From positions 310,001 through 374,000 of the forward strand of contig NZ_WPZO01000005.1 in assembly GCF_013031355.1 (NCBI RefSeq): a DNA stretch of 64,000 nucleotides, written 5' to 3'. Position numbers and translations under genes: made by a program. This stretch comes from Ruegeria arenilitoris. GTDB lineage: Bacteria > Pseudomonadota > Alphaproteobacteria > Rhodobacterales > Rhodobacteraceae. Shown piece by piece: positions 648 through 15,215 of the stretch. Numbering within the stretch: the stretch's first letter is position 1; every line of letters begins with the position of its first letter. Below the pieces are notes generated by a model. That model saw only the letters and a list, made by a program, of their open reading frames with translations, made no database searches and was not told the DNA's origin.

Positions 648-1847
648 TCAGGCGGCGCTGCGGGCAGGGTAGGGCAAGGCTTGCTCCAGGTCTGCAAGGA
701 TATCTTCGACATCCTCCAGCCCGACGGACAGACGGATCAGGCCATCGCTGATCCCATGCTCGGCCCGCTCTTCCGGGGTATACGTCGAATGGGTCATGGA
801 TGCGGGGTGCTGGATCAGGGTTTCCGCGTCGCCCAAGGACACCGCACGCTGGATCATGTTCAAGCGGTTCATGAACTCAATCCCGCCTGACAGGCCGGAC
901 TTGATTTCAAACGCTATCATGGCGCCGGGTTGGGACATCTGACGCTGCGCAACATCATGCTGGGCGAAACTCTCAAGACCGGGAAAATAAACTTCGCCGA
1001 CAGCGGGATGTGCTTCGAGGAAGTCTGCGACGACCTTGGCGGTCGCACAGTGGCGATCCAGACGCAGGTTCAGTGTCTTCAGACCACGCAGGATCAGCAT
1101 CGCGTTGAAAGGGGCCATTACCGCGCCGGTCATGTCCTTCATCCCAACAAAGCGGATCTCAGCAATCTGTTCGGCGGACCCGACAACCAGACCGGCAACC
1201 ACATCGCCATGCCCACCGAGATATTTGGTGGCGGAGTGCAGAACGATATCTGCCCCGTGCTCGATCGGGCGGGTCAAATACGGGCTGGCATAGGTATTGT
1301 CGACGACGACTGTTGCACCGACCGAGTGCGCAATTTCGGCGCTCGCGGCGATGTCCACTAAGCGCATGTTCGGATTGGCCGGAGTTTCGAAATAGACAAC
1401 GCGGGTTTTGTCAGAAATGGTCGCTTTCAGGTTCTCAGGGTCTGTCATGTCGACGTGCGTGATCGTGACTCCCCATTTTGCCAAACCGTGACGCATGAAG
1501 GCAAAGGTGCAGCCATAGAGTGTTTTGTCCACGATGACTTCGTCACCCGGCGATAGCAGGGTCCAAAGCACTGCCGTAATTGCCCCCATGCCGCTTGAGA
1601 GAGCTAGCCCGGCCTCAGCCCCTTCAAGCACGGCAATGCGTTGTTCAAGAAGGTCGCATGTGGGGTTTGAAATACGACTATAGATATGACCTTCACGCTC
1701 ACCGGCGAACATCTCTCCGCCAGCTTCTGCGGTTTCAAAGGTAAACGTGGACGTCAAATGTAGCGGTGGTGTCAGAGCGCCTTCATTTTCCAGAGGGTTA
1801 TATGCGTGGTGAATGGCGCGCGTGGCAAATCCGGTTGAACGAGTCAT
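648..1847 (-). CDS. megL: Methionine gamma-lyase (PLP, Cys/Met metabolism family)
   Basis: A 399-residue PLP enzyme that splits methionine into methanethiol, ammonia and 2-oxobutyrate. The Lys Schiff base lies in SATKYLGGHGD, the cofactor Asp in VDNTYASPY, and the LYGCTFAFMRHGL segment holds the Cys that is characteristic of methionine gamma-lyases (Cys116 in the Pseudomonas putida enzyme). Length matches the family (about 398). A longer reading frame extends upstream, but the start at 1847 is preceded by AGGAG at good spacing and gives the expected N-terminus. It is probably co-transcribed with the downstream AceE-like gene. The adjacent divergent Lrp gene is the likely regulator. Cystathionine gamma-lyase is the main alternative assignment. 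Confidence 0.9.
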   Translation of the reverse strand: MTRSTGFATRAIHHAYNPLENEGALTPPLHLTSTFTFETAEAGGEMFAGEREGHIYSRISNPTCDLLEQRIAVLEGAEAGLALSSGMGAITAVLWTLLSPGDEVIVDKTLYGCTFAFMRHGLAKWGVTITHVDMTDPENLKATISDKTRVVYFETPANPNMRLVDIAASAEIAHSVGATVVVDNTYASPYLTRPIEHGADIVLHSATKYLGGHGDVVAGLVVGSAEQIAEIRFVGMKDMTGAVMAPFNAMLILRGLKTLNLRLDRHCATAKVVADFLEAHPAVGEVYFPGLESFAQHDVAQRQMSQPGAMIAFEIKSGLSGGIEFMNRLNMIQRAVSLGDAETLIQHPASMTHSTYTPEERAEHGISDGLIRLSVGLEDVEDILADLEQALPYPARSAA

Positions 1848-1962
1848 TGCAAGCTCCTGATTCATGTTGAAGTCAGTTTGCGCCTTTACTTTGGGCCAAT
1901 GGTTGCGAATTATACCAACTCGAGCACTAAAATTGGCAGATTCTGCTAAGACTGAGGATGAA
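1848..1962. promoter_or_regulatory. Divergent megL / Lrp promoter region
   Basis: A 115-bp AT-richer spacer between the two divergent starts. On the minus strand a perfect TATAAT lies at 1914-1909, about 60 bp upstream of megL; the matching -35 is weak. On the plus strand GAGG precedes the Lrp start. Lrp regulators commonly bind such shared regions, but I see no clear Lrp consensus box. Confidence 0.4.
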
Positions 1963-2418
1963 ATGGACGCTAAGGACAGGCAGATCATTCGAGCGCTGCA
2001 GCGCGACGGGCGCATGACGAACCAGAATCTTGCCGACGAGGTGAATTTGTCTCCGTCACCGTGTTTGCGCCGGGTCAAAAACCTTGAAGCCAACGGAGTG
2101 ATAAAGGGATACAGCGCCGACGTTGACGCAGCCGCGTATGGGATGGCCATTACCGTCTTTGTGCGTATTCGGTTGGAGCGGCACAATGAAACGGACGTTC
2201 AGAGCTTCGAAAAGCGTGTTCGGATGATCGATGAAGTTCTTGAATGCCACGTGCTCACCGGGGCAATGGACTATCAGTTGCGGGTTTTGGTGTCGGATCT
2301 TGAGGCTTACGAGGAGTTTATTCGCCACCGAATTCATCCGATCGGTGGGATAGCCTCGATCGACACCAGCTTTGTCTATGGAACGGTAAAAAAGACAGCT
2401 GTCTTTCCGCCCGGATAG
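1963..2418 (+). CDS. Lrp/AsnC family transcriptional regulator
   Basis: A 151-residue regulator with the two Lrp parts: an N-terminal helix-turn-helix (DRQIIRALQRDGRMTNQNLADEVNLSPSPCLRR split over residues 4-37) and a C-terminal RAM/effector domain with the GAMDYQLRVLVSDLEAYEEF region. The start at 1963 has GAGG about 9 bp upstream and gives the standard MDxxDRQI beginning; upstream in-frame codons lack such support. It is divergent from megL, an arrangement known for MdeR-type regulators that activate methionine gamma-lyase in response to methionine. That role is inferred from position. A 16-bp perfect palindrome (2391-2406) lies inside the last codons. Confidence 0.9.
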   Translation: MDAKDRQIIRALQRDGRMTNQNLADEVNLSPSPCLRRVKNLEANGVIKGYSADVDAAAYGMAITVFVRIRLERHNETDVQSFEKRVRMIDEVLECHVLTGAMDYQLRVLVSDLEAYEEFIRHRIHPIGGIASIDTSFVYGTVKKTAVFPPG

Positions 2419-2553
2419 ATAGATCGCGTTAGAATGGGTCGCCCCCATACGGCTAATCACTTTAGCGGTTTGTTTTTCCTCGCCGCAATTTCCCATTGTC
2501 AGCCTCGCTATAGAAAAGACATGCAGCACGTGCTGCGTCACTTTTGAAAAGCG
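2419..2553. other. Intergenic, no gene recognised
   Basis: Follows the Lrp stop. No convincing ORF, terminator or promoter; it leads directly into the decayed helix-turn-helix gene. Confidence 0.5.
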
Positions 2554-2783
2554 ATGACCAAGAATCCGTATCAAGAAACCCGGAAGGCTAAATCTGTCGA
2601 AACTAGGGTGCTAGACCTGAAACCGAGCCAGACCGAGGTCGAGGCGTAGGTGGGATACGTAAGCCCGAACATGATCACGATGATCAAGCAGGGTCACTCC
2701 AAGGCGGCGCTCGATCGCGTTTCGGCATGGCAATTGCGTTAGACGCGGCCCCTGCTTTCGTCATGCAGCTCGCCCTGAAGCAG
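2554..2783 (+). pseudogene. Decayed small helix-turn-helix (XRE-like) gene
   Basis: From ATG 2554 the frame reads MTKNPYQETRKAKSVETRV, then LDLKPSQTEVEA, and meets a TAG at the point where an AS-EVGY-type segment would follow. After the stop the same frame gives VGYVSPNMITMIKQGHSK and AALDRVSAW, which looks like the recognition part of a small helix-turn-helix protein. A +1 frameshift then continues as MAIALDAAPAFVMQLALKQ. Together these look like one short regulator of about 75 residues, broken by one stop and one frameshift. The family assignment is from pattern memory only. It runs without a gap into an IS5-type transposase scrap. Confidence 0.5.
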
Positions 2784-2804
2784 GCAATTGGGCGGACAGC
2801 GGTT

Positions 2805-2918
2805 GATTGGTTACTGGGAGATCGGGGATATGATGCGGACTGGTTCTGCGAAGCCTCTATAGACAAAGGGAAAAAGCCCCGCATTCCCAGGCGGAAGTCA
2901 CGCGACAAACCGATCAGG
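2805..2918 (+). mobile_element. IS5-family transposase remnant
   Basis: About 38 codons read DWLLGDRGYDADWFCEA followed by IDKGKKPRIPRRKSRDKPI. This matches the conserved central-to-C-terminal part of IS5/IS4-type DDE transposases (the LxGDRGYDADWFR...IPGRKSRKKPI region). Everything upstream of this motif and the C-terminal E-containing part are missing, and no terminal inverted repeats could be found. It is a dead fragment, evidence of a past insertion next to the decayed regulator. Confidence 0.75.
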
Positions 2919-3113
2919 TGCCACAGATCCCCAACGGTACTGCTATCAGCAATCGCGGTCGCAGCAACCGTCATTTACTGGTCATTGATCCTGACCCTAG
3001 CACGCCCAAAGCTTTGCAACGGAACCGGCAAAGATTAAAAAAGGTAAACCGATTACTGGGTTCACCACTATTTAATGATCTAGGTCAAGGTGAATCATCC
3101 TAGGGCTGTATAA
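2919..3113. other. Intergenic, no gene recognised
   Basis: AT-richer DNA between the transposase scrap and the leader of the next operon. Short reading frames here (for example 2918-3103) show no recognisable protein features. Confidence 0.4.
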
Positions 3114-3164
3114 CTCGCTCAACCCAGAAACCCCGCTCATCACAAGATGATGGGTTGAGTCGAG
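3114..3164 (+). promoter_or_regulatory. Leader inverted repeat upstream of the PilJ-domain operon
   Basis: Left arm CTCGCTCAACCCA (3114-3126) and right arm TGGGTTGAGTCGAG (3151-3164) are complementary except for one bulged base, giving a stem of 13 pairs around a 24-nt loop. It ends 27 bp before the first start codon. It has no U-tract, so it is more likely an operator or mRNA leader structure than a terminator. Confidence 0.5.
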
Positions 3165-3191
3165 ACCCTAACCGGCAATCCCGGAGACCCT

Positions 3192-4070
3192 ATGATGTTA
3201 AGAAACGTGCTTGCGATCGCCTTGGTGCTGGTTGCTCCGACAAGTGTGTTTGCGCAATCCACGGACGTGTCGGCAGTTTCTGCGGCACAGGCGGCAAACC
3301 GGATCAACATCGCGGGACGTCAGCGGATGTTGTCGCAGCGGATGGCGAAAGCGGCTTGCCTGATGGCTCAGGACATAAGCACAACCACGGCTTATGACCA
3401 ACTGACCCAAGCACACAGCTTGTTCATTCGTTCAGATAGCGCGTTGCGTAAAGGGGACCCGGAATTCGGGCTGGCCCCGGAAGAATTCAGCTCTGTTCTC
3501 GAGGCGCTTGAAGAGATCGATCCGCATTGGACAATCTATCGGGACATCGTTGATGTCGGGATCGAAAACGCAGCAATCGAAAGTGCGGATCTCGAAGTCC
3601 TCGACAACGCCAGTCTCAACGTGCTCGAGTTTATGAATGCAGCGGTTTACACCACCGCGCAGGCCTATGCGTCCGCAACCCCGGAGGTTCCGCTGGGCCT
3701 TGCGATGACAATCGATGTTGCCGGGCGTCAGCGAATGTTGACACAGAAGGCTGTGAAAGAAGCCTGCCTGATGCGCGTCGCAACTGACCCCGCTGTGCAG
3801 GCCGCGCGGCTGGCGGAGACAGTGGACTTATTTGACCACTCACTCGTGGCCCTTCTGGATGGCTTTCCTGCCGCAGGCGTTATTCCTCCGTCCAACCCAG
3901 AGCTTTCCCGGAAACTACGAGAAGTGTCCGACCTTTGGGGGCCAGTGAAAGAGATCCTCGATCGCGCGGTTGCCAAAGAACAACTGACGGACCGGGATCT
4001 TGCAGCTCTTGCGAGGAAAACAGAGCCTCTTCTGCGCACGATGAACGAAGCCGTCATCATGTACAGATGA
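3192..4070 (+). CDS. Exported protein with two PilJ N-terminal / NarX P-box-like domains (first paralogue)
   Basis: A 292-residue protein with a Sec signal peptide cut near SVFAQ (residues about 18-22) and no further membrane segment, so probably periplasmic. It carries two copies of the PilJ-type sensor motif: NIAGRQRMLSQRM at 39-51 and DVAGRQRMLTQKA at 175-187, each followed by ACLM. These resemble the P-box of NarX/NarQ-like sensors and the N-terminal domain of type IV pilus chemotaxis receptors, but here there is no HAMP, kinase or signalling domain. GGAG lies 7 bp before the start. A close paralogue follows 52 bp downstream and a PstS/OmpA fusion after that. Ligand binding, perhaps of an oxyanion, is an inference. 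Confidence 0.8.
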   Translation: MMLRNVLAIALVLVAPTSVFAQSTDVSAVSAAQAANRINIAGRQRMLSQRMAKAACLMAQDISTTTAYDQLTQAHSLFIRSDSALRKGDPEFGLAPEEFSSVLEALEEIDPHWTIYRDIVDVGIENAAIESADLEVLDNASLNVLEFMNAAVYTTAQAYASATPEVPLGLAMTIDVAGRQRMLTQKAVKEACLMRVATDPAVQAARLAETVDLFDHSLVALLDGFPAAGVIPPSNPELSRKLREVSDLWGPVKEILDRAVAKEQLTDRDLAALARKTEPLLRTMNEAVIMYR

Positions 4071-4122
4071 CCCACACAAAACGACCTGAGACAGGCAATT
4101 CTCAGCACAAAAGGACAAAAGA

Positions 4123-5013
4123 ATGATCAGAATGGTTCTGACCGCAACCCTCTTGGTCTGCGCAACAGTTGCGCCTCAGACCTCGACTGCACAGGACAGC
4201 ACAAATGTGGATCAGGTTACACATCGTGTGAATATTGCAGGCCGTCAGCGCATGTTGACCCAGCGGATAACAAAAGCCGCCTGCCTGATGGCGCGGGATG
4301 TGGGATTCACCACGTCTTTTGACCAGATGACCCAAGCCTATGATCTGTTTTTGCAATCGGACCAGGGATTGCGCAACGGGGATTCAGATCTGGGTCTGGA
4401 TGCTGAAAACAATGACACAGTCATCGGGGCGCTTGAGGCGATTGATTCACATTGGGCCGCTTACAAGGCGATCATTGAAACCGGCATAGACAACGCCACT
4501 ATTGCCAATGCAGAGCTGGATGAGCTCGATGGCGCAAGCCTGCGGGTGCTGAAGTTCATGAACATCGCTGTCTATAAAATGGCACGGGCCTATGCCTCTG
4601 AAACGGAGTCGGTTTCTCTGAATCTGGCGATCACCGTTGATATCGCCGGGCGTCAGCGCATGCTGACCCAAAAGGCAGTGAAAGAGGCCTGCCTGATGCA
4701 GGCGGCGGAAGATCCGGCTGAGCAGGCGGCGCGTTTGGCCGACACGGTTGAACTCTTTGATACCTCGTTGTCCGCGCTGCAGGACGGTTTCGAGGATATC
4801 GGCGTCATTGCCCCGCCCACACCGGAAATCGCCCGAAAGCTGCGCGAAGTCGAAGAGCTGTGGAATCCGGTTAAAGGCCTGCTCGAACGTGCGGTGAACG
4901 GCGAAGTGCTGTCAGACCGCGATCTGTCCGTTCTTGCTCGCGACAGTGAGCCGCTGCTGCAGCGCATGAATGAGGCAGTTGCCCTTTACACCACGCAATC
5001 CTCTTCGAGCTGA
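4123..5013 (+). CDS. Exported protein with two PilJ N-terminal / NarX P-box-like domains (second paralogue)
   Basis: A 296-residue paralogue of the preceding protein with the same plan: a signal peptide ending near STAQD (residue 24), NIAGRQRMLTQRI at 37-49 and DIAGRQRMLTQKA at 173-185, and a shared tail (SDRDLSVLARDSEPLLQRMNEA split over about 270-290). The two proteins are similar along their whole length, so this is a tandem duplication, and each protein is itself an internal duplication. It sits between its paralogue and the PstS/OmpA fusion, all on one strand with gaps below 100 bp. No cytoplasmic output domain is present, so any signal must pass through a partner. Confidence 0.8.
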   Translation: MIRMVLTATLLVCATVAPQTSTAQDSTNVDQVTHRVNIAGRQRMLTQRITKAACLMARDVGFTTSFDQMTQAYDLFLQSDQGLRNGDSDLGLDAENNDTVIGALEAIDSHWAAYKAIIETGIDNATIANAELDELDGASLRVLKFMNIAVYKMARAYASETESVSLNLAITVDIAGRQRMLTQKAVKEACLMQAAEDPAEQAARLADTVELFDTSLSALQDGFEDIGVIAPPTPEIARKLREVEELWNPVKGLLERAVNGEVLSDRDLSVLARDSEPLLQRMNEAVALYTTQSSSS

Positions 5014-5106
5014 AGGCATCCATCGGGGGCTGCTGCGGGTGCAGCCCAATCCTCAGCCACCCGATCTTTCGGCGAATCCAACAGGCGAATTTTGGAGTAA
5101 AATCAG

Positions 5107-6873
5107 ATGTCTCATGCTTCCTGGACCTCAAAATCATTCCTGGCGCACAATTCCAGACAAGTGTTTGTGGCCGTCAGCATGTTCGCATCTGCTTTTGCTC
5201 TTGGGGCAAACGCGCAACCGGCAAATGAAGTTGAACTCACCACCCATGATGGTGGCACGAGTGTTCGCGGCGTAATTCTGGAGTATGACGGGGCTACCTA
5301 TGTCCTGCAGACAGAGTTGGGGAAACTGACACTTTATGCTGCGATGCTTAAATGTTCCGGTGCGGGCTGTCCCGGAGCTGACGGGGCTATCGCAGAAGCC
5401 GAACTGGAAGAAGAGGTTGTCGACACAAGGGTGACGTTGGTCTCGCGGAGCGATGACACAGAAGTTGTCGGGGAATTGGTCGACTACAGCGACAGCTACT
5501 ATGTCGTTGAAACCCCGCTCGGTAGCTTTCAACTTTCCACGGACCGGGTAGACTGCGTTGGCGCCGCCTGCCCGGATTTGAATCTCTATGATCCGAAGAT
5601 CGCTTTGCTTGGCGGGACCAATGCTGTTGACTTCATGATGCCTGCACTGCTGAGCGAATATGCACGCGAGCGTGGGCTTCGCTATCTGATTGACGAGCAA
5701 TCCCCCGGTCGTTCTGTTGTCACTCTTCTGAGCGGTGAGGATGGTTCCGTGGTCGCCGAGATAGACATGCAGCCTTCCAGTGCGTCTGATCCCGTCTTCG
5801 CTCCGGACATCATGATCACAGACCAACGGATCAACGCAGCTGCAGGTACAGAGCGGGAATTTATGCTTGCACTGGACAGTCGCGTTCTGATTGCCGGCGA
5901 CAAAAACCCTGTCCGCGACCTGAGCATTGAAGAAATCGCGGGCATTCTGTCCGGTGATCTGCGGTCTTGGGAAAACCTGGGCGGGGGCAATTCGCCTGTT
6001 ACGCTGCATCTGCTGGAAGGGGACAAACCGGCGCTCTTTTATCAGAAGGTCTCAGGCAGTCCCGATGGCCCTCTGGCCGCGGATACAGTATTTCATCCCA
6101 ATGCTCAGGAGTTAATCGACTCCGTCCGCGCAGATCGCTCGGCGCTTGGTCTCCTTGATCGCGTACAGGTACAGCGTGATGGGGCCGATATGATGTCCAT
6201 CCGTAAAGCCTGTGGGCTTATGTCTGAACCGTCCAATTTCGATTTGAAAATCAAAAATTATCCACTGTCGCGCCCTGTCCTTGCCTATGCTGCAGAAGAG
6301 AATCTGCATCCGGTTGCCGGTGATTTCCTTCAATGGACGAAGACGGATGCCGCACAATCTGTGCTTGAGGATACAGGATTCGCCAGTGCCCAGCTTCAGC
6401 GCATGAAGATTCAGGACATGGGTATAGCCCTGATCCACGCCGCTGCCATGGAACCGGATTTCAGCGGGGATGAGTTTTCGTCAATGATGCGCGAGTTGCG
6501 CCGTGCGGACCGTCTCTCCATCACGTTCCGCTTTGACAATGCCTCCAGTAATCTGGACGCGGAGTCTGTGCTGAACATCCGCGACCTGGCAAACCGACTG
6601 CGCAACAGCGAATTTGACGGGCTGGAGCTTCTGCTTGTCGGTTTTGCCGATAGCGTGGGTGATGCGGGGCACAATACGCGGCTTGCGCAACAACGTGCAG
6701 AGGCTGTGAAAGAGGTGCTAGCAAATGAATTTGCTGCTGATGGGCTGAGCCGGTTTAACATTCAGGCACTGAGTTTTGGTGAGCAGATGCCGCTTGACTG
6801 CAATGACACCAATGAAGGCCGGGCCAGCAATCGTCGCGTTGAAGTCTGGGTTCGTGTGCCCGAAAGCTCTTGA
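5107..6873 (+). CDS. PstS-like substrate-binding domain fused to OmpA peptidoglycan-binding domain
   Basis: A 588-residue exported protein; the signal peptide ends near GANAQ (residue about 37). Residues about 40-150 hold two repeats of roughly 50 residues, each a small beta unit ending in a paired-cysteine motif (LKCSGAGCPG and VDCVGAACPD). A PstS/SBP-type domain follows (TNAVDFMMPALLSEY, SIEEIAGILSGDLRSWENLGG), as in phosphate-binding proteins. The C-terminal 120 residues are an OmpA-like domain (FRFDNASSNLDAES, LLLVGFADSVGD, NRRVEVWV), which binds peptidoglycan. It therefore probably anchors a solute-binding module to the cell wall. It is last in the operon with two PilJ-domain proteins and is followed by a terminator. 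No ABC permease is encoded nearby, which argues for sensing or scavenging rather than uptake. Confidence 0.8.
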   Translation: MSHASWTSKSFLAHNSRQVFVAVSMFASAFALGANAQPANEVELTTHDGGTSVRGVILEYDGATYVLQTELGKLTLYAAMLKCSGAGCPGADGAIAEAELEEEVVDTRVTLVSRSDDTEVVGELVDYSDSYYVVETPLGSFQLSTDRVDCVGAACPDLNLYDPKIALLGGTNAVDFMMPALLSEYARERGLRYLIDEQSPGRSVVTLLSGEDGSVVAEIDMQPSSASDPVFAPDIMITDQRINAAAGTEREFMLALDSRVLIAGDKNPVRDLSIEEIAGILSGDLRSWENLGGGNSPVTLHLLEGDKPALFYQKVSGSPDGPLAADTVFHPNAQELIDSVRADRSALGLLDRVQVQRDGADMMSIRKACGLMSEPSNFDLKIKNYPLSRPVLAYAAEENLHPVAGDFLQWTKTDAAQSVLEDTGFASAQLQRMKIQDMGIALIHAAAMEPDFSGDEFSSMMRELRRADRLSITFRFDNASSNLDAESVLNIRDLANRLRNSEFDGLELLLVGFADSVGDAGHNTRLAQQRAEAVKEVLANEFAADGLSRFNIQALSFGEQMPLDCNDTNEGRASNRRVEVWVRVPESS

Positions 6874-6906
6874 TCAGGTAAGGGCTGGGGGCTGTTTTGG
6901 GCGGAG

Positions 6907-6928
6907 ACTGGCGGTATCGTCAGTTTTT
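6907..6928 (+). terminator. Rho-independent terminator of the PilJ/PstS-OmpA operon
   Basis: ACTGGCG and CGTCAGT form a 7-bp stem (one G-T pair) with a 4-nt loop, followed by TTTTT. It lies 34 bp after the stop of the OmpA fusion gene. Confidence 0.7.
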
Positions 6929-6951
6929 ATGACTGTTGTAGCCCCCCCATC

Positions 6952-7049
6952 GATGCCTAACGCGGAGAATGGCAGCAGTGATCGAGTAGTAGAATAGTCT
7001 GTGGCGTTCTACTTGGCGTAATGGTGAAACTGCTGTTGTGTTAGGCATC
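6952..7049. repeat. 98-bp segment bounded by 10-bp inverted repeats
   Basis: GATGCCTAAC (6952-6961) and its exact reverse complement GTTAGGCATC (7040-7049) bound the space between two convergent genes; the right arm includes the stop codon of the GMC oxidoreductase gene. No target-site duplication flanks it. It could be a small palindromic element or chance. Confidence 0.3.
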
Positions 7050-8636
7050 CGCTCTTATCAAATCGCTCGCCCGTTCTCCGATCATGATCGCCGGCGCATT
7101 GGTGTTGCCACTGACAATTTCCGGCATGATCGAGCAATCGGCCACGCGCAGGTTGTCTATGCCGCGTACCTTTAGTTTTGCATCTACAACTGACGCCTCA
7201 GAGCTTCCCATCGCGCAAGTGCCGGTAGGATGATAGATTGACGCGGTGTTAGATCTTACCCAGTCCAGTGTGCCATCATAATCGTCGCAATTCAGTTCTG
7301 CCGTTGGACGAAACTCCTCTGAAATCTTCGAGGCCAGGGGATTCTGTTTGGCAATTCTGCGCGCGATGTTCACGCCATCGACGATGGTTCGGCAATCCGT
7401 TTCAGTGGACAGGTAGTTCGGGATTATTTTGACATGTTTGGACGGATCCGGACCGTTCAAACGAATCTCTCCTCGACTTTCCGGACGCAGTTGGCAGACC
7501 GACATGGTGAATGCTGAAAACGGATGAACGCCCTCGCCGGGGCTGTCCGCGGACCAGGGCTGAACGTGGAACTGAATGTCGGGCGTCTCTACATCCGGTC
7601 GGGTTTTCATGAATCCGGTGGCTAGGCTGGCGGCCATCGTCATAGGGCCCGCACGGAACAACGCGTATTTTAAGGCGATGCGTGCCTGATTGAACAGGCT
7701 TCGGACTTCATCATTCAGCGTCGGTTCGTTGCATTTGAACACCAGCCGTGCCTGCAAGTGATCCTGCAGGCCCTTGCCGACGCCGGGCAGGGCGTGCAGC
7801 GGTGCGATAGCGTTTTCCTTCAGATGGTCCGGGTCTCCGATTCCGGATAGCATCAGGATCTGGGGCGAGTTTATCGCTCCGCCGGACAGGATGATTTCGC
7901 GACGGACCGTTAGGGTTTGTTCGGCACCAGAGCGATCCCGGTAAATCAGACCGGTTGCCTTCTTCCCCTCAAGAACCACGCGCGTGACCAGTGCGTTGGT
8001 GATTATGTTCAGGTTCTGACGCCCCCGGATGGGCTTTAGATAGGCCACGGCAGCGCTGCACCGGCGGCCGTTGCGGGTGGTCAATTGGAAGTAGCCCACG
8101 CCCTCTTGGTCTGCCCCGTTGTAATCCGGGTTGAACGGATAGCCAGCGGCCTGCGCCGCGGCCACCCACGCGTCGCAGATGGGGCGTTGGATGCGCATAT
8201 TCGACACGGACAAAGGCCCGCCGACACCGTGAAATTCATCCTCGCCCCGCTCCTGATCCTCGCAGCGTTTGAACAGGGGCAGGACATCGTCCCATCCCCA
8301 GCCCTCGTTGCCCATTTGTCGCCAGCGGTCGTAGTCCTCTTTCTGTCCACGGACATAGAGCAATCCGTTCAGTGAAGACGACCCGCCCAGCACCTTGCCG
8401 CGCGGCCAGTCGATGGATCGCCCGTTCAGCCCCGGATCAGGTTCGGTGCGATAGCACCAGTCGACCGAGGGGTTATGCATGGTTTTGAAATAGCCAACAG
8501 GGATGTGAATCCACGGGTTGGTATCGCGGCCACCAGCCTCGAGCAGAGCAACGGTCGTGTTGGGGTTGGCGCTCAGCCGGTTGGCAATGACACAGCCCGA
8601 AGACCCCGCACCAACAACCGCATAATCCACTTCCAT
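7041..8636 (-). CDS. GMC-family FAD oxidoreductase (choline dehydrogenase-like)
   Basis: A 531-residue flavoenzyme that oxidises a primary alcohol. The FAD dinucleotide motif is at the N-terminus (VVGAGSSGCVIANRL, residues about 6-20), followed by the GMC signature regions (WPRGKVLGGSSSLNG and SGGAINSPQILMLSGIG) and the active-site His segment YHPTGTCAMG near the end. The start at 8636 follows GAGGAGG; codons further upstream are not supported. It lacks a signal peptide. It is divergent from a TRAP transporter whose IclR regulator may control both, so the transported compound, or a product of it, is probably its alcohol substrate. Choline itself is not favoured because no betaine aldehyde dehydrogenase or BetI is nearby. 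Confidence 0.88.
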   Translation of the reverse strand: MEVDYAVVGAGSSGCVIANRLSANPNTTVALLEAGGRDTNPWIHIPVGYFKTMHNPSVDWCYRTEPDPGLNGRSIDWPRGKVLGGSSSLNGLLYVRGQKEDYDRWRQMGNEGWGWDDVLPLFKRCEDQERGEDEFHGVGGPLSVSNMRIQRPICDAWVAAAQAAGYPFNPDYNGADQEGVGYFQLTTRNGRRCSAAVAYLKPIRGRQNLNIITNALVTRVVLEGKKATGLIYRDRSGAEQTLTVRREIILSGGAINSPQILMLSGIGDPDHLKENAIAPLHALPGVGKGLQDHLQARLVFKCNEPTLNDEVRSLFNQARIALKYALFRAGPMTMAASLATGFMKTRPDVETPDIQFHVQPWSADSPGEGVHPFSAFTMSVCQLRPESRGEIRLNGPDPSKHVKIIPNYLSTETDCRTIVDGVNIARRIAKQNPLASKISEEFRPTAELNCDDYDGTLDWVRSNTASIYHPTGTCAMGSSEASVVDAKLKVRGIDNLRVADCSIMPEIVSGNTNAPAIMIGERASDLIRADA

Positions 8637-8744
8637 GACTGCCTCCTCCTCACGCCGTCGAAAAAACTCTATGCAAGATGCAAGAATTATACTAGCCTTT
8701 TTTGATACAAAACGTCTCAATATTTGCAATCAGGGAGGTAAGCA
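8637..8744. promoter_or_regulatory. Divergent promoter region, GMC oxidoreductase / TRAP operon
   Basis: A 108-bp AT-rich spacer. It contains a short inverted repeat TTTTG-ATA-CAAAA (8700-8712) and a direct repeat ATGCAAG-ATGCAAG (8671-8684). GGGAGG precedes the TRAP binding-protein gene. The inverted repeat is a candidate operator for the IclR protein encoded downstream; it is short, so the call is tentative. Confidence 0.35.
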
Positions 8745-9983
8745 ATGGAGATCGGTCGGAAACTAAGTGGTATTTCGCGGCGGGATTTTTTCCGTGTTGC
8801 CGGGCGCTATGGCATGAGTTCGACACTACTGGCGGCAGGTGGGTTCGGGGGGGCGATGAGCCTGGCGAATCTGGCTCAGGCTGCAGAATCAACCTATGAA
8901 AAGCGCTTTTCGAAAGAGCCGAAACACACGCTGAAATTTGGCGCGTCAGGCTTCAACACTCGCAACCTGCTGATCGAACGCGCCGGTGCAATCGAGTTCG
9001 CGCGCGATCTGGAAGAGCGCACGGATGGCGAAATTCGCATCGAATTCATCGGTGACAACCAGATCTGCGGGCAGCTGAGTTGTGTCGAGAAGACCCAGCA
9101 GGGGATCGTCGATATCTATGCCGCCTCGACTCAGAACTCGGCCGGTGGCGCGCCTTATCTGAACGTTCTGGACTATGCTTACATGTTCCCCAGCCGCGCG
9201 GCGCAGTATCACTTCTTCTATAGCCCTGCGAGCCAGCGCATCCTGCGTGATCCCTTGGAAAAACGGCACGGGTTGAAATTCCTGTTCACGCATTGCGAAC
9301 TGCGCGGCCTGCAAATGGGATCGACATTTGCCGACAAGCCGACCGTGACCAAGCTGGAAGAGCTGTTCGGAACCAAAAACCGCGTGACGGGCACGCAGCT
9401 GGGGCGGATTGCGATGCAGCTGCTGAACCTGAACCCGGTACCGGTTGCGTGGGAGGAAACGCTGGACGCTCTGAAAACCGGTCTGATCGACGGGGCCGAA
9501 ACCTGGGCTTCGGCCGTGGCTTACGCCAACATGTCGCCTGTGGTGTCGCAGTCGGTCAATCTGAAATTCTTCTGCGGAACCGAACATACGTCGATGTCGG
9601 CCAAGGTGTTCGACAGCCTCAGCGGAGAATTGCAGAACGCGGTGATGGAGTCTTCGTATTTCACACAGGCTTTGATTCAGGGCGCAAACGAGGCGGCGCT
9701 GCTGAACACCGTAGGGTTCTCGGATCCGCAACTGCCGAACACGATCTTTGCCGAAAACGGCGTGCGTCCCGCCTTCCTGGCCGACGATCAGATCAAACTG
9801 GCCGAAGAGATGTGCGCCCCGAACTACAACCCTGAGCCGTGGGAGCAGTGGCGCGAGCGTCTGAACAAATGGGCAGGCGGCATCGATACCTATCAGGAAA
9901 TCTACGACATCGCGCGCGAGATCCCGGCAGACACCTTGCCGGAGAATGTCGAGCCACGCCGTTGGTGGATGGGCCAAGCCTGA
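8745..9983 (+). CDS. TRAP transporter substrate-binding protein (DctP family), Tat-type signal
   Basis: A 412-residue periplasmic binding protein. The N-terminus has a twin-arginine motif (SRRDFFRVAG, residues about 11-20), then a hydrophobic Ala/Gly-rich stretch and a likely cut after NLAQAAE, so export in folded form is likely. The mature part has the DctP fold features (LEERTDGEIRIEFIGDNQ; EETLDALKTGLIDGAETW). It delivers an organic acid or similar small molecule to the DctQM permease encoded next. The ligand Arg cannot be assigned by eye. A strong hairpin lies between this gene and the permease genes, a common way to keep binding-protein levels above those of the membrane subunits. Confidence 0.88.
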   Translation: MEIGRKLSGISRRDFFRVAGRYGMSSTLLAAGGFGGAMSLANLAQAAESTYEKRFSKEPKHTLKFGASGFNTRNLLIERAGAIEFARDLEERTDGEIRIEFIGDNQICGQLSCVEKTQQGIVDIYAASTQNSAGGAPYLNVLDYAYMFPSRAAQYHFFYSPASQRILRDPLEKRHGLKFLFTHCELRGLQMGSTFADKPTVTKLEELFGTKNRVTGTQLGRIAMQLLNLNPVPVAWEETLDALKTGLIDGAETWASAVAYANMSPVVSQSVNLKFFCGTEHTSMSAKVFDSLSGELQNAVMESSYFTQALIQGANEAALLNTVGFSDPQLPNTIFAENGVRPAFLADDQIKLAEEMCAPNYNPEPWEQWRERLNKWAGGIDTYQEIYDIAREIPADTLPENVEPRRWWMGQA

Positions 9984-9994
9984 TAAGCTTTAGC

Positions 9995-10019
9995 GAACCG
10001 GCCCCAAACGGGCCGGTTC
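9995..10019 (+). promoter_or_regulatory. Intercistronic 10-bp perfect hairpin
   Basis: GAACCGGCCC (9995-10004) and GGGCCGGTTC (10010-10019) form a perfect stem around CAAAC. No U-tract follows, so it is best read as an mRNA-stabilising or attenuating structure between the binding-protein and permease genes. Confidence 0.65.
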
Positions 10020-10049
10020 CACAACACACCGACTGGGAGGACGGGGTAC

Positions 10050-10715
10050 ATGACGTTTTGGGCAGATATAGGCGCGATTATCAGCGCCTTTCTCAGTCAG
10101 GATTCGTTCGAGATTCAATCTGCATTGGAATCTGATGCCACTTGGGTGTTCGGGGCCGTGGTCTCGGCAATTGGCGGGTTCGTGATCATGCTGATCTATC
10201 GGGCAGTCCCCTTTGTCGAACGCCATCTGGAACGGTCGGTGATGGTGTATTCCTACCTCGCGATTGCCCTGATCATCTTTTGGGGCGTGATAGACCGGTT
10301 CGTGTTCAACGACCAAGAGCCGTGGTCAACCACCATTCCGCCGCTGTTGTTCATGGTCATGGCGTGGTTCGGCGCGTCCTACAATGTCCGCCTGCGCACG
10401 CATCTGAGCTTCAGTGAGTTCCGCACGGCCATGCCGCGTGGCGGTCAACTGGCTTGCCTGATCCTCGATGCAGTGCTGTGGTTCATCTTTGCGGTAATCG
10501 TCATCGTGACCACAACCCGGTTGGTGGCGCTGTCGGCGTCGAATTTTCAGATCGTTCTGGGGACCGACAACATCATGCAATGGTGGTTCCTTCTGGCTGC
10601 GCCTCTGTCTTTCTTTCTGATGGTCGGGCGTGTGTTTCAGAACCTCGCAGATGATCTGCACAACTGGAAAACTGGTGAGCCGCTGATCCAGCAGGCCGTG
10701 ATCGGAGCAGACTGA
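10050..10715 (+). CDS. TRAP transporter small permease (DctQ family)
   Basis: A 221-residue membrane protein with four to five hydrophobic segments, including VVSAIGGFVIMLIYRA, YLAIALIIFWGVI and LDAVLWFIFAVIVIV. It is longer than the usual DctQ (about 160-180) because of an N-terminal extension of about 35 residues. Its stop overlaps the start of the large permease gene (TGATG), so the two are probably translationally coupled. It forms the membrane unit with DctM. Confidence 0.82.
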   Translation: MTFWADIGAIISAFLSQDSFEIQSALESDATWVFGAVVSAIGGFVIMLIYRAVPFVERHLERSVMVYSYLAIALIIFWGVIDRFVFNDQEPWSTTIPPLLFMVMAWFGASYNVRLRTHLSFSEFRTAMPRGGQLACLILDAVLWFIFAVIVIVTTTRLVALSASNFQIVLGTDNIMQWWFLLAAPLSFFLMVGRVFQNLADDLHNWKTGEPLIQQAVIGAD

Positions 10716-12073
10716 TGACAGACGGAACCATGGTCACACTGATCTCGCTTGGGGTCACTTTTCTGTTCATGCTGGGCGTGCCGGTTCTGCTGGTGATTGG
10801 CTATTGGGTCATCGGCTGTTCCTTCGTTCTTGGCCTGACGCTGGACAATATGGGCGCCGAGCTTTTGAACGTGTTCAACAAAGGTTTTGCCCTGCTGGCG
10901 ATGCCATTGTTCATCCTGACCGGCGACCTGATCAACAAGTCAGGTATCGCAAGGCGGCTCAGCGATTTTGCATATGCCTGTCTGGGCTGGATACGCGGCG
11001 GGCTGGCGATGGCATCGCTTGGCGCTTGCGGATTGTTCGCGGCGATCTCGGGGTCGAACTCGGCGACAACGGCGACTATTGGCTCGATGCTGCATCCGGA
11101 GATGGTCAAAGGTGGCTATGACGAACGATTCAGCGCCGCCACCGCGGCGGCGGGCGGTACGGTGGGGATCATCATTCCGCCGTCGATTATTTTCATCGTC
11201 TACGGTTTCCTGATGAACCTGCCGATATCTGAACTGTTCGTCGCCGGTATTTTGCCAGGCGCTCTGATGGTCATGGGGATGCAGTTCGCTTGCTGGATTA
11301 TCTGTCGAATGAATGGCTGGGGACACCTGATTCCGCTGCAACTGAACCGGGTGCTGAAAACGGCGTTCGGAGCGTGGCTCGGCTTCTTCGCCATTGGGCT
11401 GGTGCTTTGGGGCATCTATACAGGCAAATTCTCTCCGACCGAAGCGGCGGGTGTGACGGTCGGCTTCTGCGTAATTGCTGGATTGGTCAGCTATCCGATC
11501 AACCGCTTGATGGGGGCCCGGAACGACATTCCGCCAACCGAAAAAAGTTTCGCCGAAATGTTCGTGGTCGAAGGGTTTACGATCCCCGAGATCCCCTCAA
11601 TCGTGATCCGCTCGGCTCAGATCACCGGTATCCTCGCACCGCTAATCGCAATTTCAGTGGTCATGCAGCAGATCCTTTCACTGCTAGGTGCGCAGCAAAC
11701 TATCGGGGATTTCGTGACCTCAATGGGGGGCTACCATGCGGTTCTGTTTACCTCGATGGTAATCGTCTTTTTCTCAGGAATGGTTCTGGAAAGCCTGCCT
11801 GTAACGATCATCCTGGCCCCGATTTTGGCACCGATTGCGGCTTCGGTTGGAATTGATCCGATCCATTTCTCAGTGATCTTCCTTGTGGGGGCGTCCATCG
11901 GGTTCATTACCCCGCCCTACGGGTTGAACCTCTACGTGGCCTCGGGTGTGACCGGTGTGCCCTATTTCCGGCTGCTGCGGTATACGGTGCCCTATCTGGT
12001 GGCGTTGCTGTCGGTGTGGATTTTGGTGTCGCTTGTGCCCGATCTGGCCTTGATCCTACTGCCAAATAACTAG
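10715..12073 (+). CDS. TRAP transporter large permease (DctM family)
   Basis: A 452-residue, mainly hydrophobic protein of the DctM family, with about 12 membrane segments. Diagnostic stretches include LLAMPLFILTGDLINKSGI near residues 55-75, FAAISGSNSATTATIGSML near 108-127 and GTVGIIIPPSIIFIVYG near 146-165. This is the ion-coupled transport subunit (usually Na+-driven in marine bacteria). It follows DctQ with a start-stop overlap and ends 11 bp before the IclR gene. Confidence 0.9.
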   Translation: MTDGTMVTLISLGVTFLFMLGVPVLLVIGYWVIGCSFVLGLTLDNMGAELLNVFNKGFALLAMPLFILTGDLINKSGIARRLSDFAYACLGWIRGGLAMASLGACGLFAAISGSNSATTATIGSMLHPEMVKGGYDERFSAATAAAGGTVGIIIPPSIIFIVYGFLMNLPISELFVAGILPGALMVMGMQFACWIICRMNGWGHLIPLQLNRVLKTAFGAWLGFFAIGLVLWGIYTGKFSPTEAAGVTVGFCVIAGLVSYPINRLMGARNDIPPTEKSFAEMFVVEGFTIPEIPSIVIRSAQITGILAPLIAISVVMQQILSLLGAQQTIGDFVTSMGGYHAVLFTSMVIVFFSGMVLESLPVTIILAPILAPIAASVGIDPIHFSVIFLVGASIGFITPPYGLNLYVASGVTGVPYFRLLRYTVPYLVALLSVWILVSLVPDLALILLPNN

Positions 12074-12084
12074 ACTGTTGCAGG

Positions 12085-12864
12085 ATGGCCGAGACGGAAA
12101 CACAAGACAAAGAAACTCAGATCCCGACCAACTTGCGCCTTCTTCTCATCCTTGAGGAGGTGGCGCGGCGCGGGGTTGCCGTTAAACCATCGGACCTGAT
12201 TGAGACGTTGGGTCTGGCCAAGCCGACCGTCCACCGCCTGCTGCAAACCGCAGAGGCCGAAGGCTTCCTGCAGCGCGATCTGGATGGTCGCTCGTATGGC
12301 CCCGGACATCGGCTGCGGTTGTTGTCGGTCAATACGATGTCCTCCGAGCACCTCCGCACTGCACGTCTGGCAATCTTGCGCAGCGTCGCCGAAAAAGTTG
12401 GTGAGACTTGCAATCTGGCCATTCCGGACAGGGAAGGGATGATCTACCTTGATCGGGTGGAAACGAAGTGGCCACTGCGAATTCAGCTGCCGATCGGTAC
12501 TCAAGTTCCTTTCCATTGCACCGCCAGTGGCAAAATGTACCTGTCCACACTGCGGCAGAAAACGCTGGATGGATTTCTTTCTGCGGGAAACCTGCAACCG
12601 CAGACCGAACGGTCCCTGACTGATCCAAAGGCATTGCGAGCGGAAATCCGACGCATTTCTGAGAGCGGTTATTCTACAGATGATGAGGAATTTATGGCCG
12701 GAATGACGGCCCTTGCTGTGCCCGTTCGAGACGGGCAGGGCAGGTTAGTGGGCACACTTTCCGTTCACGCCCCAACTCAACGCCACGATATCAACAGCCT
12801 AATGTCCTTTCTGCACATACTGCAAAAGGGAGCAGGTGAGCTTTCGGCTATGTTAACCGACTAA
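12085..12864 (+). CDS. IclR family transcriptional regulator
   Basis: A 259-residue regulator with an N-terminal winged helix (LLLILEEVARRGVAVKPSDL, then LAKPTVHRLLQTAEAEGFL) and a C-terminal IclR effector domain (CNLAIPDREGMIYLDRVE; PFHCTASGKMYLS; GYSTDDEEF; ALAVPVRDG). The gene is 11 bp after DctM, so it is in the same operon. It most likely controls the TRAP genes and the divergent GMC oxidoreductase in response to the substrate. Confidence 0.88.
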   Translation: MAETETQDKETQIPTNLRLLLILEEVARRGVAVKPSDLIETLGLAKPTVHRLLQTAEAEGFLQRDLDGRSYGPGHRLRLLSVNTMSSEHLRTARLAILRSVAEKVGETCNLAIPDREGMIYLDRVETKWPLRIQLPIGTQVPFHCTASGKMYLSTLRQKTLDGFLSAGNLQPQTERSLTDPKALRAEIRRISESGYSTDDEEFMAGMTALAVPVRDGQGRLVGTLSVHAPTQRHDINSLMSFLHILQKGAGELSAMLTD

Positions 12865-13096
12865 TGCGCACTCGAGACGAATGTCACAACGCGACCCACT
12901 TTTCTAATCAACTCGAAATCGATAATCGTCCTGATTGGAGAAATATCCATCGCGGCGGATAAGAGCGTGATCAAATCTTGCTATAGGTCGACCTGGAAAG
13001 CGGTCTAAAGGCACTTCGCTTAAGTGGCTTCTGTTATCGCATACGCGTTCTCAAGCTCGACCCCGAGTCGTCGATCCTGAAATTCGCAAAACACAT
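12865..13096. other. Intergenic, no gene recognised
   Basis: No terminator or conserved coding signal seen after the IclR gene. The codons just before 13097 can be read in frame with the YCII-like remnant and may belong to it. Confidence 0.4.
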
Positions 13097-13234
13097 ATGG
13101 CAAAGCACCTCGATTTCCTCGAACGGAACGCGGATAAGATTGAGGCTGCAGGCCTTCTGTTCGACACAGTCAGACAAGGGCGCGATGGTATTCGGATCGT
13201 TGAAGCAGGCTCGAAGCTGATCCATCCGGGTTGA
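13097..13234 (+). pseudogene. YCII-domain protein remnant
   Basis: Forty-five codons read MAKHLDFLERNADKIEAAG, then LLFDTVRQGRDGIRIVEAGSK. This fits the middle of YciI-related proteins (HLDFL...KIxxAGPLxDxxGxxxGxxxIVEA). Upstream codons RPRVVDPEIRKTH keep the frame and probably belong to the ancestral gene. The C-terminal DPFxxxGL part is lost to a TGA. It is a decayed gene or gene fragment. Confidence 0.5.
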
Positions 13235-13562
13235 GGTATCAGCGTCTAGGTGGGGCTGGTCGGACATTGAGGTAAACGCGGCGAAGGGGGTATTTTGTCT
13301 GCAACCTGAAGGTTCGCTCTAATTCGGATACTTCGCTCGCAGCAAAGGTCCGGTTTGGCGGACCTCTCCGCAGTAGGGCGCCAAGTTGAACAATGTCCGG
13401 TAAGGGCCGGAAACAATCGGGAAGGCTGTCGCCTGCGAGCATGCTGACCCAGTGCGGACGGATGTATTCGCATAGCAAGCTCGTTGCATTTGTCGTCGTA
13501 CAATGCTGATCTTACCGGACAGATGCGTGCAACCTGTGCGTGCCGATCCGAAAGGATAGCTT
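13235..13562. other. Intergenic, no gene recognised
   Basis: Overlapping minus-strand reading frames (13239-13684) have no recognisable motif, and part of their length is antisense to the malic enzyme gene. The stretch around 13370-13490 looks like low-information extragenic DNA. A GAAAGGA ribosome-binding site for the malic enzyme gene lies at its right end. Confidence 0.4.
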
Positions 13563-15215
13563 ATGGTCGATTCCAGTCCTGCAAATTTGCAATACTTGAC
13601 GAACCCACTTTTGAACAAAGGGACTGCCTTTTCATTGCGCGAACGAGAAGAACTCGGATTGACGGGTCTTCTACCGCCACACATCGAAACTCTCGAAACT
13701 CAGATAGACAGGGCTTATGCCGCCTTTGAACGTGAGGAGACACCGCTGGACAAGCATGTCTATCTGCGCGGTCTGCAGGATGACAACGAGGTTCTGTTTT
13801 ACGCTTTATTGGTGCGGCATTTGTCCGAGATGATGCCGATAATTTACACACCCGTGGTGGGGGATGCCTGCAAGCGGTTCAGTGAAATTTACGACCACCC
13901 ACGCGGATTGATCATTTCATACCCCGAGCGCGACCGGATTGATGACATACTTGAGAATGCCATCCTGCCCTCTGTCGAAGCTATAGTCGTCACAGACGGA
14001 GAGCGGATTTTGGGTTTGGGCGATCAAGGCGCGGGCGGCATGGGAATCCCGATTGGAAAGCTTTCGCTTTATACCGCTGCGGGCGGAATAAGCCCGTCTG
14101 TGACGCTTCCGGTGGTTTTGGACGTCGGCACCAACAATCAGGAACGATTGGAAGATCCCCTCTATATCGGATGGCGGAATGAGCGCATCAGCGGGGACGA
14201 GTACTTTGAGTTTGTCGAACTTTTTGTGCAGGCGGTAAAGCGCAAGTGGCCGGATGTGTTACTGCAGTTCGAGGATTTTGCACAGCAACATGCGGCACCA
14301 CTGCTGGCGCGATATCGCGATCAACTCTGTACTTTCAATGATGATATTCAGGGCACGGCGGCAGTAACGGCAGGCACTTTGCTGGCTGCATCCAACGTCA
14401 CCGATATTCCGTTAAAGAACGCAACAATCGCGTTCCTCGGAGCGGGTTCTGCAGGGGTGGGTATAGCCGAACAACTGGTTCAGCTCATGGTCCGACAAGG
14501 ACTATCCGACACTGAGGCACGCGGGCGCATCTACATGGTGGATCGGGCCGGGTTGTTAACCGATGCAATGACAGACCTTCTGCCGTTCCAGAAGCAAATC
14601 GTACAACCCATCGACAAAGTCGGAAGCTGGTCCGATGGTGAGATTTCGCTGCTGGATGTGATAAATCATGCCAAACCCAACATTCTAGTTGGTGTCAGCG
14701 GGCAGGCAGGCTTGTTCTCAGAGGAGATCATTCGTGCGATGGCTTCTCACGCGGAACATCCTGTCGTGTTGCCGCTTTCGAACCCGACATCGCGAATTGA
14801 GGCCGTGCCTGCAGATATTTTCCATTGGTCAGATGGTCGTGCAATGGTCGCCACCGGAAGCCCGTTTGAGCCGGTTGTTTACAACGGAAAGACACACCAT
14901 GTCGCGCAATGCAATAACTCCTACATTTTCCCAGGCATGGGGCTGGGTGTGTTGGCGGCAGGCGCACGTCGTGTCACTAACGGAATGTTCATGGCCGCCG
15001 CTGAGGCGTTGGCGGCATTGTCGCCCGCTAAATCCGATCGCACCGCCAGCTTGCTGCCCGATGTTGAGGATATTCGCCAGGTCAGCAAAGCAATCGCATT
15101 TGCCGTTGGTCAACAGGCACAGCTGGATGGCGTTGCGCCTAAATCCACAAGTGACGAGCTGAAGGCGGCAATAGATGCGAAGTTTTGGACCCCGCAATAT
15201 CAGGAGATTTCTTGA
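13563..15215 (+). CDS. maeA: NAD-dependent malic enzyme
   Basis: A 550-residue malic enzyme that converts malate to pyruvate, CO2 and NADH. N-terminal malic domain motifs are clear: [23 protein letters not shown], split across residues about 78-100, the Tyr-containing [31 protein letters not shown] (around 145-165; contains the catalytic Lys segment) and FEDFAQQHA. The metal-binding FNDDIQGTA follows, then the NAD domain [13 protein letters not shown]. The long (about 550) form is the NAD-linked SfcA/MaeA type rather than the MaeB form fused to phosphotransacetylase. It appears to be a single-gene unit with GAAAGGA before the start. A malolactic enzyme is a less likely alternative. Confidence 0.9.

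Follow-up and report, generated by a model that had tools for sequence, protein, structure and literature searches.

Nitrate sensing by PilJ/NarX-type domains has been described, in the accounts available as extracts, for the outer part of membrane receptors, and NIT domains have been described in proteins such as NasR. In McpN (PA2788) the arginine of the G-x-x-R in a motif termed the N-box binds a single nitrate on the dimer's two-fold axis (extracts of PMC6381276 and PMC8199190), and the N-box is defined as [IVL]-[ND]-x-A-G-x-Q-R-M-L-[ST]-Q (extract of PMC6381276). The PilJ ligand-binding domain of McpN (6gcv) is a single domain, needs two chains and belongs to a membrane chemoreceptor. The periplasmic region of the PilJ chemoreceptor (8wdf, 7zjr) is a tandem of PilJ domains, also part of a membrane receptor, with an N-box that is not conserved and with no nitrate binding as far as the extracts report. 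The NIT domain of the nitrate-responsive antiterminator NasR (4akk) has eight helices (extract of PMC7496416) and two arginines in its nitrate site (extract of PMC8199190), is fused to an RNA-binding ANTAR domain and is not exported. Here we describe an operon of three genes, P1 to P3, at positions 3192–6873 of a 64,000-nucleotide stretch of Ruegeria arenilitoris DNA (assembly GCF_013031355.1, contig NZ_WPZO01000005.1, positions 310,001 to 374,000, forward strand), referred to below as the window. P1 and P2 are exported-looking tandem PilJ proteins that likely carry a nitrate site, and P3 joins a PstS-type fold to an OmpA domain. Among the matches listed in the open-access literature, outside of which most subscription journals fall, none dealt with exported PilJ proteins that stand alone or with PilJ and OmpA together.

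Results

The operon consists of three open reading frames (ORFs) in one direction, separated by 52 bp (P1–P2) and 93 bp (P2–P3).

3192–4070, + strand: P1, exported-looking tandem PilJ protein, 292 amino acids (aa), PF13675 114.7 bits in two stretches
4123–5013, + strand: P2, exported-looking tandem PilJ protein, 296 aa, PF13675 111.3 bits, likewise in two stretches
5107–6873, + strand: P3, repeat-repeat-PstS-fold-OmpA protein, 588 aa, OmpA 47.5 bits, PBP_like_2 28.2 bits

P1 and P2 are paralogues with 59% identity and contain the only PilJ matches in the genome. The PF13675 cut-off is 26.6 bits, and each of the four single domains exceeds it alone; all four (4/4) also fit the published N-box. 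The first-pass annotation of this DNA, which had proposed two paralogues with two P-box-like motifs each, is thereby confirmed at the level of family thresholds. Positions of the N-boxes, read from the sequence with the definition in the extract of PMC6381276, and of a conserved cysteine pair are as follows.

3303–3338, + strand: P1 N-box 1, INIAGRQRMLSQ (G42, R45)
3711–3746, + strand: P1 N-box 2, IDVAGRQRMLTQ (G178, R181)
4228–4263, + strand: P2 N-box 1, VNIAGRQRMLTQ
4636–4671, + strand: P2 N-box 2, VDIAGRQRMLTQ
3357–3359, + strand: P1 Cys56, first half of the conserved pair
3765–3767, + strand: P1 Cys192, second half of the conserved pair

A Pfam scan at E up to 1 found no families beyond PilJ in P1 and P2 and OmpA and PBP_like_2 in P3, so P1 and P2 have no HAMP, kinase or methyl-accepting chemotaxis protein (MCP) domain, in agreement with the earlier claim that HAMP and output domains are absent; the same scan gave no sequence match to the NIT family in either protein. 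Their N-termini are signal-peptide-like, and the export that had been claimed for them holds in the sense that they look exported, export of P1 to P3 being a reading of the N-termini without a signal-peptide predictor. Past residue 40 the mean hydropathy is at most 1.36 in every 19-residue window of P1, P2 and P3, so no membrane helix is expected in any of them. Rather than the composition of a membrane-spanning receptor with HAMP and output modules, P1 and P2 have an N-terminal hydrophobic segment only and no other Pfam domain. Judged by their motifs, the PilJ domains likely carry an oxyanion (nitrate) site, and the best explanation of P1 and P2 would be that they are soluble periplasmic nitrate-binding proteins, with nitrate as the presumed ligand.

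The AlphaFold2 model of P1, made from 55 rows, had a pLDDT of 93.6 and a pTM of 0.88. Its best VIA-align match, and the best over its whole length, was NasR (4akk_B; Z 19.8, 252 residues, 4.3 Å), which covers the model range 17–292 and thus both bundles, at 8% identity over the alignment; NasR is absent from the 34 PDB sequences matched by a PilJ-tandem profile. McpN shares the PilJ fold and the N-box G-x-x-R with P1 and is 31% identical to part of it in the Foldseek alignment. However, it matched one bundle only in VIA-align (6gcv_B, Z 16.2) and, unlike P1, has no cysteine at the equivalent alignment position. The PilJ receptor tandems 8wdf and 7zjr were the best sequence-profile match in the PDB and stood at the top of the Foldseek results by E-value, with TM of 0.28–0.29 and rmsd of 23–24 Å, so the bundles in the P1 model are arranged otherwise than in those receptors. 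The fold of P1 and the pseudo-dimer formed by its two halves are accordingly described here as predictions.

A single cysteine lies at equal distance past the N-box in either half of P1 (Cys56/Cys192) and of P2 (Cys54/Cys190). We compared 61 tandem PilJ proteins, 57 found in family genomes with the PilJ profile (the two from the window included) and 4 found in genus members through P1. The cysteine pair was present in 56, both cysteines were missing in 4, and one stood alone in 1 (Fisher 9.6e-6, kinship uncorrected); exactly two cysteines past residue 25 were found in 42 of the 61. Among the 55 rows, which came from the best 80 of 425 relatives, 31 had both cysteines, 21 neither and 3 a single one. 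One cysteine per PilJ half, in a pair that is widely kept, suggests a disulfide staple across the pseudo-dimer. Cysteines paired on the two first helices would be expected of disulfide-linked bundles packed next to each other, not of stacked ones, and conservation thus points to the former arrangement.

P3 contains the two Cys-paired repeats, the PstS-like domain and the OmpA domain that had been attributed to it.

5227–5376, + strand: P3 Cys-paired repeat 1 (C83, C88), second match to the start of the PBP/OmpA (periplasmic binding protein/OmpA) profile, 45.2 bits
5428–5580, + strand: P3 Cys-paired repeat 2 (C150, C155), Cys pair invariant in a 12-row alignment
5593–6396, + strand: P3 PstS-type fold, ligand loops lost; VIA-align with 4jwo and 4gd5_A, loops compared in 36 proteins
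6508–6858, + strand: P3 OmpA domain of the peptidoglycan-binding type, PF00691 47.5 bits; 5u1h_A, E 1.1e-14

The OmpA match (cut-off 27.2 bits) bears out the peptidoglycan-type anchor that had been placed beside the PilJ tandems. D515 and R530, which we take to be the peptidoglycan-binding residues of the domain, are invariant in the 12-row alignment, and with this Asp and Arg of the binding motif peptidoglycan binding by P3 is putative. The hydrophobic stretch of P3 peaks at residues 19–37, and the true start may be further inside. PBP_like_2 is barely above its cut-off of 27 bits, and the PstS fold, weak by sequence, is backed by the structural model, which is poor overall (pLDDT 61, pTM 0.50); its top PstS-type chains in VIA-align were 4jwo (Z 18.6, 222 residues aligned, 3.8 Å) and 4gd5_A (Z 18.4). 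Residues of about 167–430 share the fold of PstS-type proteins (4gd5, 4q8r, 4jwo). Unlike these, P3 has replaced ligand loops, lies in an operon without a Pst permease and is fused to OmpA and Cys repeats. Other PBP/OmpA proteins of the family, usually of about 520–560 aa, have the same domain order but one Cys repeat; those of loci L092 and L093 have three copies.

The phosphate-holding loops of PstS-type proteins are, we presume, those of the GSxT, SGAF and SGT type. In the 36-protein alignment P3 has GGTNAVD in place of GSxTVG and EGDKPA in place of the SGT-type loop, and lacks about 18 residues past the second loop that most homologues have; aligned to phosphate-bound 4gd5, the SGT of 4gd5 stands opposite DKP of P3. 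Its nearest homologues (L086–L090, L099), unlike P3, keep loops of the GSRTVG and GSGD types, in weaker form in L090, and no PilJ gene was found in the fetched stretches of those loci. The SGT loop occurs in 0/7 proteins of operons in which PilJ comes first (window, L188, L100, L190, L191). In operons with PBP/OmpA first it occurs in 11/17 PBP domains, and nearly all have a GSD-type first loop. Because the phosphate-type loops have been lost from its PstS-like domain, P3 more probably serves as an anchor than as a binding protein; binding of phosphate or another oxyanion, with the ligand loops replaced and shortened, was rejected as the leading explanation of this protein.

A sister species in the genus (G317, locus L188) has the operon too.

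2959–6903, no strand assigned: unit shared with G317, blastn, 93.4% DNA identity

To the right of this unit the G317 DNA cannot be aligned with the window. Only the right boundary of the unit is firm, since the G317 contig (9214 bases) starts 64 bases to the left of the matching region. Any match to P1 was confined to 5 of 61 genomes in the relatives search, every one inside the genus, and the three-gene unit to 2 of 37 genus genomes, that of the window counted; a further genus member, G043, had no PilJ match. In two other loci of genus members (L190, L191) PilJ is followed by two PBP/OmpA genes.

Across the family PF13675 matched in 43 of 295 genomes, above the cut-off in 41, and stand-alone two-domain PilJ proteins of at most 520 aa were found in 34 of 295. 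Loci were fetched for 37 of the 43, six genomes with only long proteins being omitted, and the comparison covered 50 loci whose PilJ gene encodes at most 520 aa (L097, with 552 aa, was dropped); 46 of these, all pairs included, have a strict two-domain PilJ gene. In 15 of the 50, from 12 genomes, a PBP/OmpA gene lay on the same strand at a distance of up to 1.5 kb, with PBP/OmpA first in 14 and PilJ first in the window. Among 60 named loci with such a PilJ gene the pairing was found in five (L100, L117, L118, L135, L137). ORFs around the loci were longest-ORF picks, with an antisense ORF chosen in GC-rich L040, L049, L051 and L068, and the PBP/OmpA ORF of L067 is a 196-aa part. P3 itself had a match in 295/295 family genomes, many of the best E-values (1e-5 to 1e-12) probably reflecting the OmpA part alone; that survey scored four candidates per genome and the adjacency counts were not drawn from it.

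Quick trees, made without bootstrap, placed the pairs apart. Among 85 tandem PilJ proteins placed in one tree, those of the PilJ-first operons formed two separate starred groups, apart from the PBP/OmpA-first operons, which all fell in one moderately supported fork and were mixed with unpaired proteins. In the PBP/OmpA tree P3 fell into a group of unpaired proteins, and both the L190/L191 pair and the PBP/OmpA-first group stood elsewhere; L100 was a long branch of unsure place. On the simplest account the pairing probably arose at least three times independently, which argues for a working partnership.

Some tandem PilJ proteins are longer, about 470–500 aa, with an extra C-terminal region (L049 at 6878–8299, L053, L063, L072, L095, L096); in that of L049 an MCP-like PDC sensor domain matched below its threshold (24.5 bits, cut-off 27).

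The best 80 of 425 relatives, which were found with patterns derived from the N-box, also include stand-alone PilJ proteins of two or four domains from records titled Alpha-, Gamma- and Deltaproteobacteria, Campylobacterales and Planctomycetota. Neighbours were scanned in 30 of 32 loci outside records titled Rhodobacteraceae or its genera (all but L123 and L151), in many on one side only. Genes of nitrogen-oxide metabolism were near five of the 30: NnrS 41 bp upstream of the PilJ gene in L111, NirB in L150 and L153, a NarK-family transporter in L168 (302.7 bits, slightly below the cut-off of 311.7), and siroheme decarboxylase and cytochrome d1-type genes in L167. Within the family, two ammonium transporter genes directly precede the PilJ gene in L060 and L070. 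An MCP gene follows a tandem PilJ gene by 14–69 bp in L113, L120 and L124, three lineages by record title (the PilJ ORF of L113 is over-long at its start, with a hydrophobic segment at 180), and binding-protein-dependent nitrate chemotaxis is possible for these pairs. Rhodanese and LysM genes stand in one run in three of six four-domain loci (L122, L136, L141), with an OmpA gene also in L141; these runs of the Campylobacterales form an independent pairing with wall-binding modules. Operons of Campylobacterales type with four-PilJ and rhodanese-domain proteins were seen in L116, L122, L136 and L141, with TSP3 repeats in the OmpA protein of L141; L116 and L122 also encode M23 peptidases. In L148, L149, L154, L163 and L169, also of Campylobacterales type, the tandem PilJ proteins have about 440–460 aa and another hydrophobic segment, at around residue 287.

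The genome of the window very probably assimilates nitrate, since it has NirB above the cut-off, adjoined by a nitrate ATP-binding cassette (ABC) ATPase (TIGR01184), also above the cut-off. In the family NirB was above the cut-off in 27/43 PilJ-positive versus 93/252 PilJ-negative genomes (p 0.002, kinship uncorrected), or in 23/37 versus 97/258 (p 0.007) when the six genomes with only long signalling proteins were not counted as positive. No match to the MCP-signal domain was found in the window genome (99.99% complete), and the same search was positive in 7/14 control genomes. Chemotaxis as an output in this host was rejected, the genome being without an MCP-signal match.

Features around the operon are listed here.

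2727–3038, + strand: degraded IS5-type transposase fragment just upstream of P1, NCBIfam NF033580 23.5 bits, E 3.4e-5 (far below the cut-off of 110)
3075–3088, + strand: FNR/NnrR-like box ATGATCTAGGTCAA, weak, one mismatch to TTGAY-N4-RTCAA
8745–9983: DctP, tripartite ATP-independent periplasmic (TRAP) transporter
10050–10715: DctQ, TRAP transporter
10715–12073: DctM, TRAP transporter

TTGAY-N4-RTCAA is presumably the consensus of the FNR/NnrR box. The window holds six such boxes versus 7.1 expected by chance, so the box upstream of P1 is not significant alone. Boxes with at most one mismatch lie within 250 bp upstream of 17/113 PilJ operons, in a set that includes duplicates (L079/L130, window/L188), versus 52/661 control genes of the same loci and a shuffle mean of 3.7. 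FNR/NnrR-type regulation of these operons is a hint only, because of the duplicates and the lack of an excess across the window.

To the right of the operon lie a divergent GMC oxidoreductase gene and then the TRAP transporter (8745–12073). Among the main ORFs of 648–15215 that were scanned there was no PstCAB permease, and the TRAP system was the only transporter. G317 also has a TRAP transporter to the right of the operon (L188, 5596–8660), where the DNA cannot be aligned; the large subunits of the two transporters are 34% identical. On the left, a methionine gamma-lyase above the NCBIfam cut-off (648–2186) is divergent from an Lrp-type regulator (1864–2418), the two ORFs overlapping as listed. 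A plasmid origin was rejected, as tblastn of P1 against a plasmid collection gave two weak Cupriavidus matches only (26–27% identity).

Discussion

The patterns found are consistent with a model, to which we would give an even chance, in which P1 and P2 are stapled, soluble nitrate-binding pseudo-dimers and P3 is a wall-bound scaffold that does not bind phosphate. Within one chain the two four-helix PilJ bundles would pack side by side in the manner of the NasR NIT domain. This would bring the N-box arginines (R45 and R181 in P1) together on a pseudo-two-fold axis, where they would bind a single nitrate, mirroring the two-chain sites of McpN, NarX and NarQ. A C56–C192 disulfide between the two first helices would staple the pseudo-dimer and so leave a preformed site that needs neither a membrane nor a second chain. 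P3 would be fixed to peptidoglycan through its OmpA domain, and its PstS-type domain, with phosphate binding lost, may act as a docking scaffold, so that the unit would keep nitrate-loaded P1 and P2 in the periplasm beside the wall. As output, P1 and P2 could present nitrate to the apparent Nrt-type importer and nitrate-assimilation system of the genome, could touch an unlinked inner-membrane receptor, or could serve for storage.

Several observations weigh against this model. Unrelated helical bundles reach a VIA-align Z of about 13–14 according to the tool's own note, and VIA-align gives no residue pairs, so that the meeting of R45 and R181 at a NasR-like site is a prediction of the model. 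In the extract of PMC6381276 the two-PilJ receptor domain of P. aeruginosa PilJ has no conserved N-box and does not bind nitrate. G-x-x-R in both halves was found in only 28 of the 61 tandems, fewer than have the cysteine pair, and nitrate therefore cannot be assumed for the whole class; the 46 of 55 rows with G-x-x-R in both halves are an inflated count, since that set was found through patterns derived from the N-box and the 61 through the whole profile or P1. The nitrate-assimilation genes sit on another contig (C4) than the operon, and stand-alone PilJ genes often lie beside unrelated housekeeping genes or unrecognised ones. No PBP/OmpA gene was adjacent in 35 of the 50 family loci, and the trees are also compatible with an older pairing followed by many losses instead of repeated gain. 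The absence of an MCP from the genome closes the chemoreceptor route found elsewhere.

An alternative explanation could be that P1 and P2 are accessory sensors that dock, loaded or empty, on an unlinked inner-membrane receptor or kinase, with P3 positioning them. Some chemoreceptors are served by docking periplasmic binding proteins, and this account, which we consider rather unlikely, would fit the MCP genes next to tandem PilJ genes in L113, L120 and L124 and, in L164, the response regulator gene of NarL/LuxR type that lies on the opposite strand at a distance of 12 bp. Such MCP genes were, however, seen in only 3/30 scanned loci outside records titled Rhodobacteraceae or its genera, no receptor gene is among the scanned window ORFs of 648–15215, and the genome has no MCP. 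It could also be that the ligand of the PilJ tandems is not nitrate but a different anion or a small organic signal, or that these proteins have a structural role. The greater constancy of the cysteine pair (56/61) than of G-x-x-R in both halves (28/61) would then reflect a structure more constrained than the site, and the TRAP transporters for an unknown solute near the unit in both the window and G317 would be in keeping with this; but P1 and P2 keep four intact N-boxes and the genome has nitrate-assimilation genes, and we judge this explanation, too, to have a minor share of the probability.

Two further explanations appear improbable. One is that phosphate or a different oxyanion is bound by the PstS domain of P3, which would hand it on to the PilJ proteins or sense it jointly with them. 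The fold itself, and the retention of SGT loops and GSD-type first loops in many PBP/OmpA-first operons, would allow it, but the GGTNAVD and EGDKPA replacements, the missing residues and the DKP opposite the SGT of phosphate-bound 4gd5 argue otherwise. The other is that the unit is a mobile cassette in which unrelated envelope proteins are neighbours by chance, which could account for the IS5 remnant alongside it, its presence in only two of 37 genus genomes and the lack of a PilJ match in G043. Chance would not account well for pairing in 15 of 50 loci when a genome has only a handful of either gene, or for pairs in separate groups on both the PilJ and the PBP/OmpA trees.

The first-pass annotation had seen in the operon an oxyanion-binding envelope complex of parts detached from their usual partners and without a permease. 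Its PilJ part and anchor are a fair inference and the PstS part is probably wrong; oxyanion binding is thus retained as the likely nitrate site of the PilJ domains and given up for P3. The genes are indeed neighbours elsewhere, all three in the G317 unit and, as PilJ and PBP/OmpA pairs, in family loci other than that of the window. PilJ is detached in that it has no output domain, but this is not peculiar to the locus, being found in 34 family genomes and in other phyla. A permease is absent from the operon itself, but a TRAP transporter lies just beyond the next, divergent gene.

More broadly, and tentatively, exported tandem PilJ proteins may be a general class of disulfide-stapled, single-chain periplasmic nitrate receptors that evolved from dimeric membrane sensors, have repeatedly been tethered to the wall by partners of the OmpA or LysM type, and act for transporters or receptors as solute-binding proteins of a non-PBP kind. 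P1 to P3 would be a loose-parts counterpart of sensors usually built into the membrane. P1 and P2 are small and probably soluble, which makes the idea of nitrate binding directly testable. If the exported tandems do bind nitrate, they would add to the periplasmic oxyanion-binding proteins a second kind that is not a PBP, and their pairing with wall-binding proteins in two distant groups would, if true, offer a first handle on nitrate receptors held at the cell wall.

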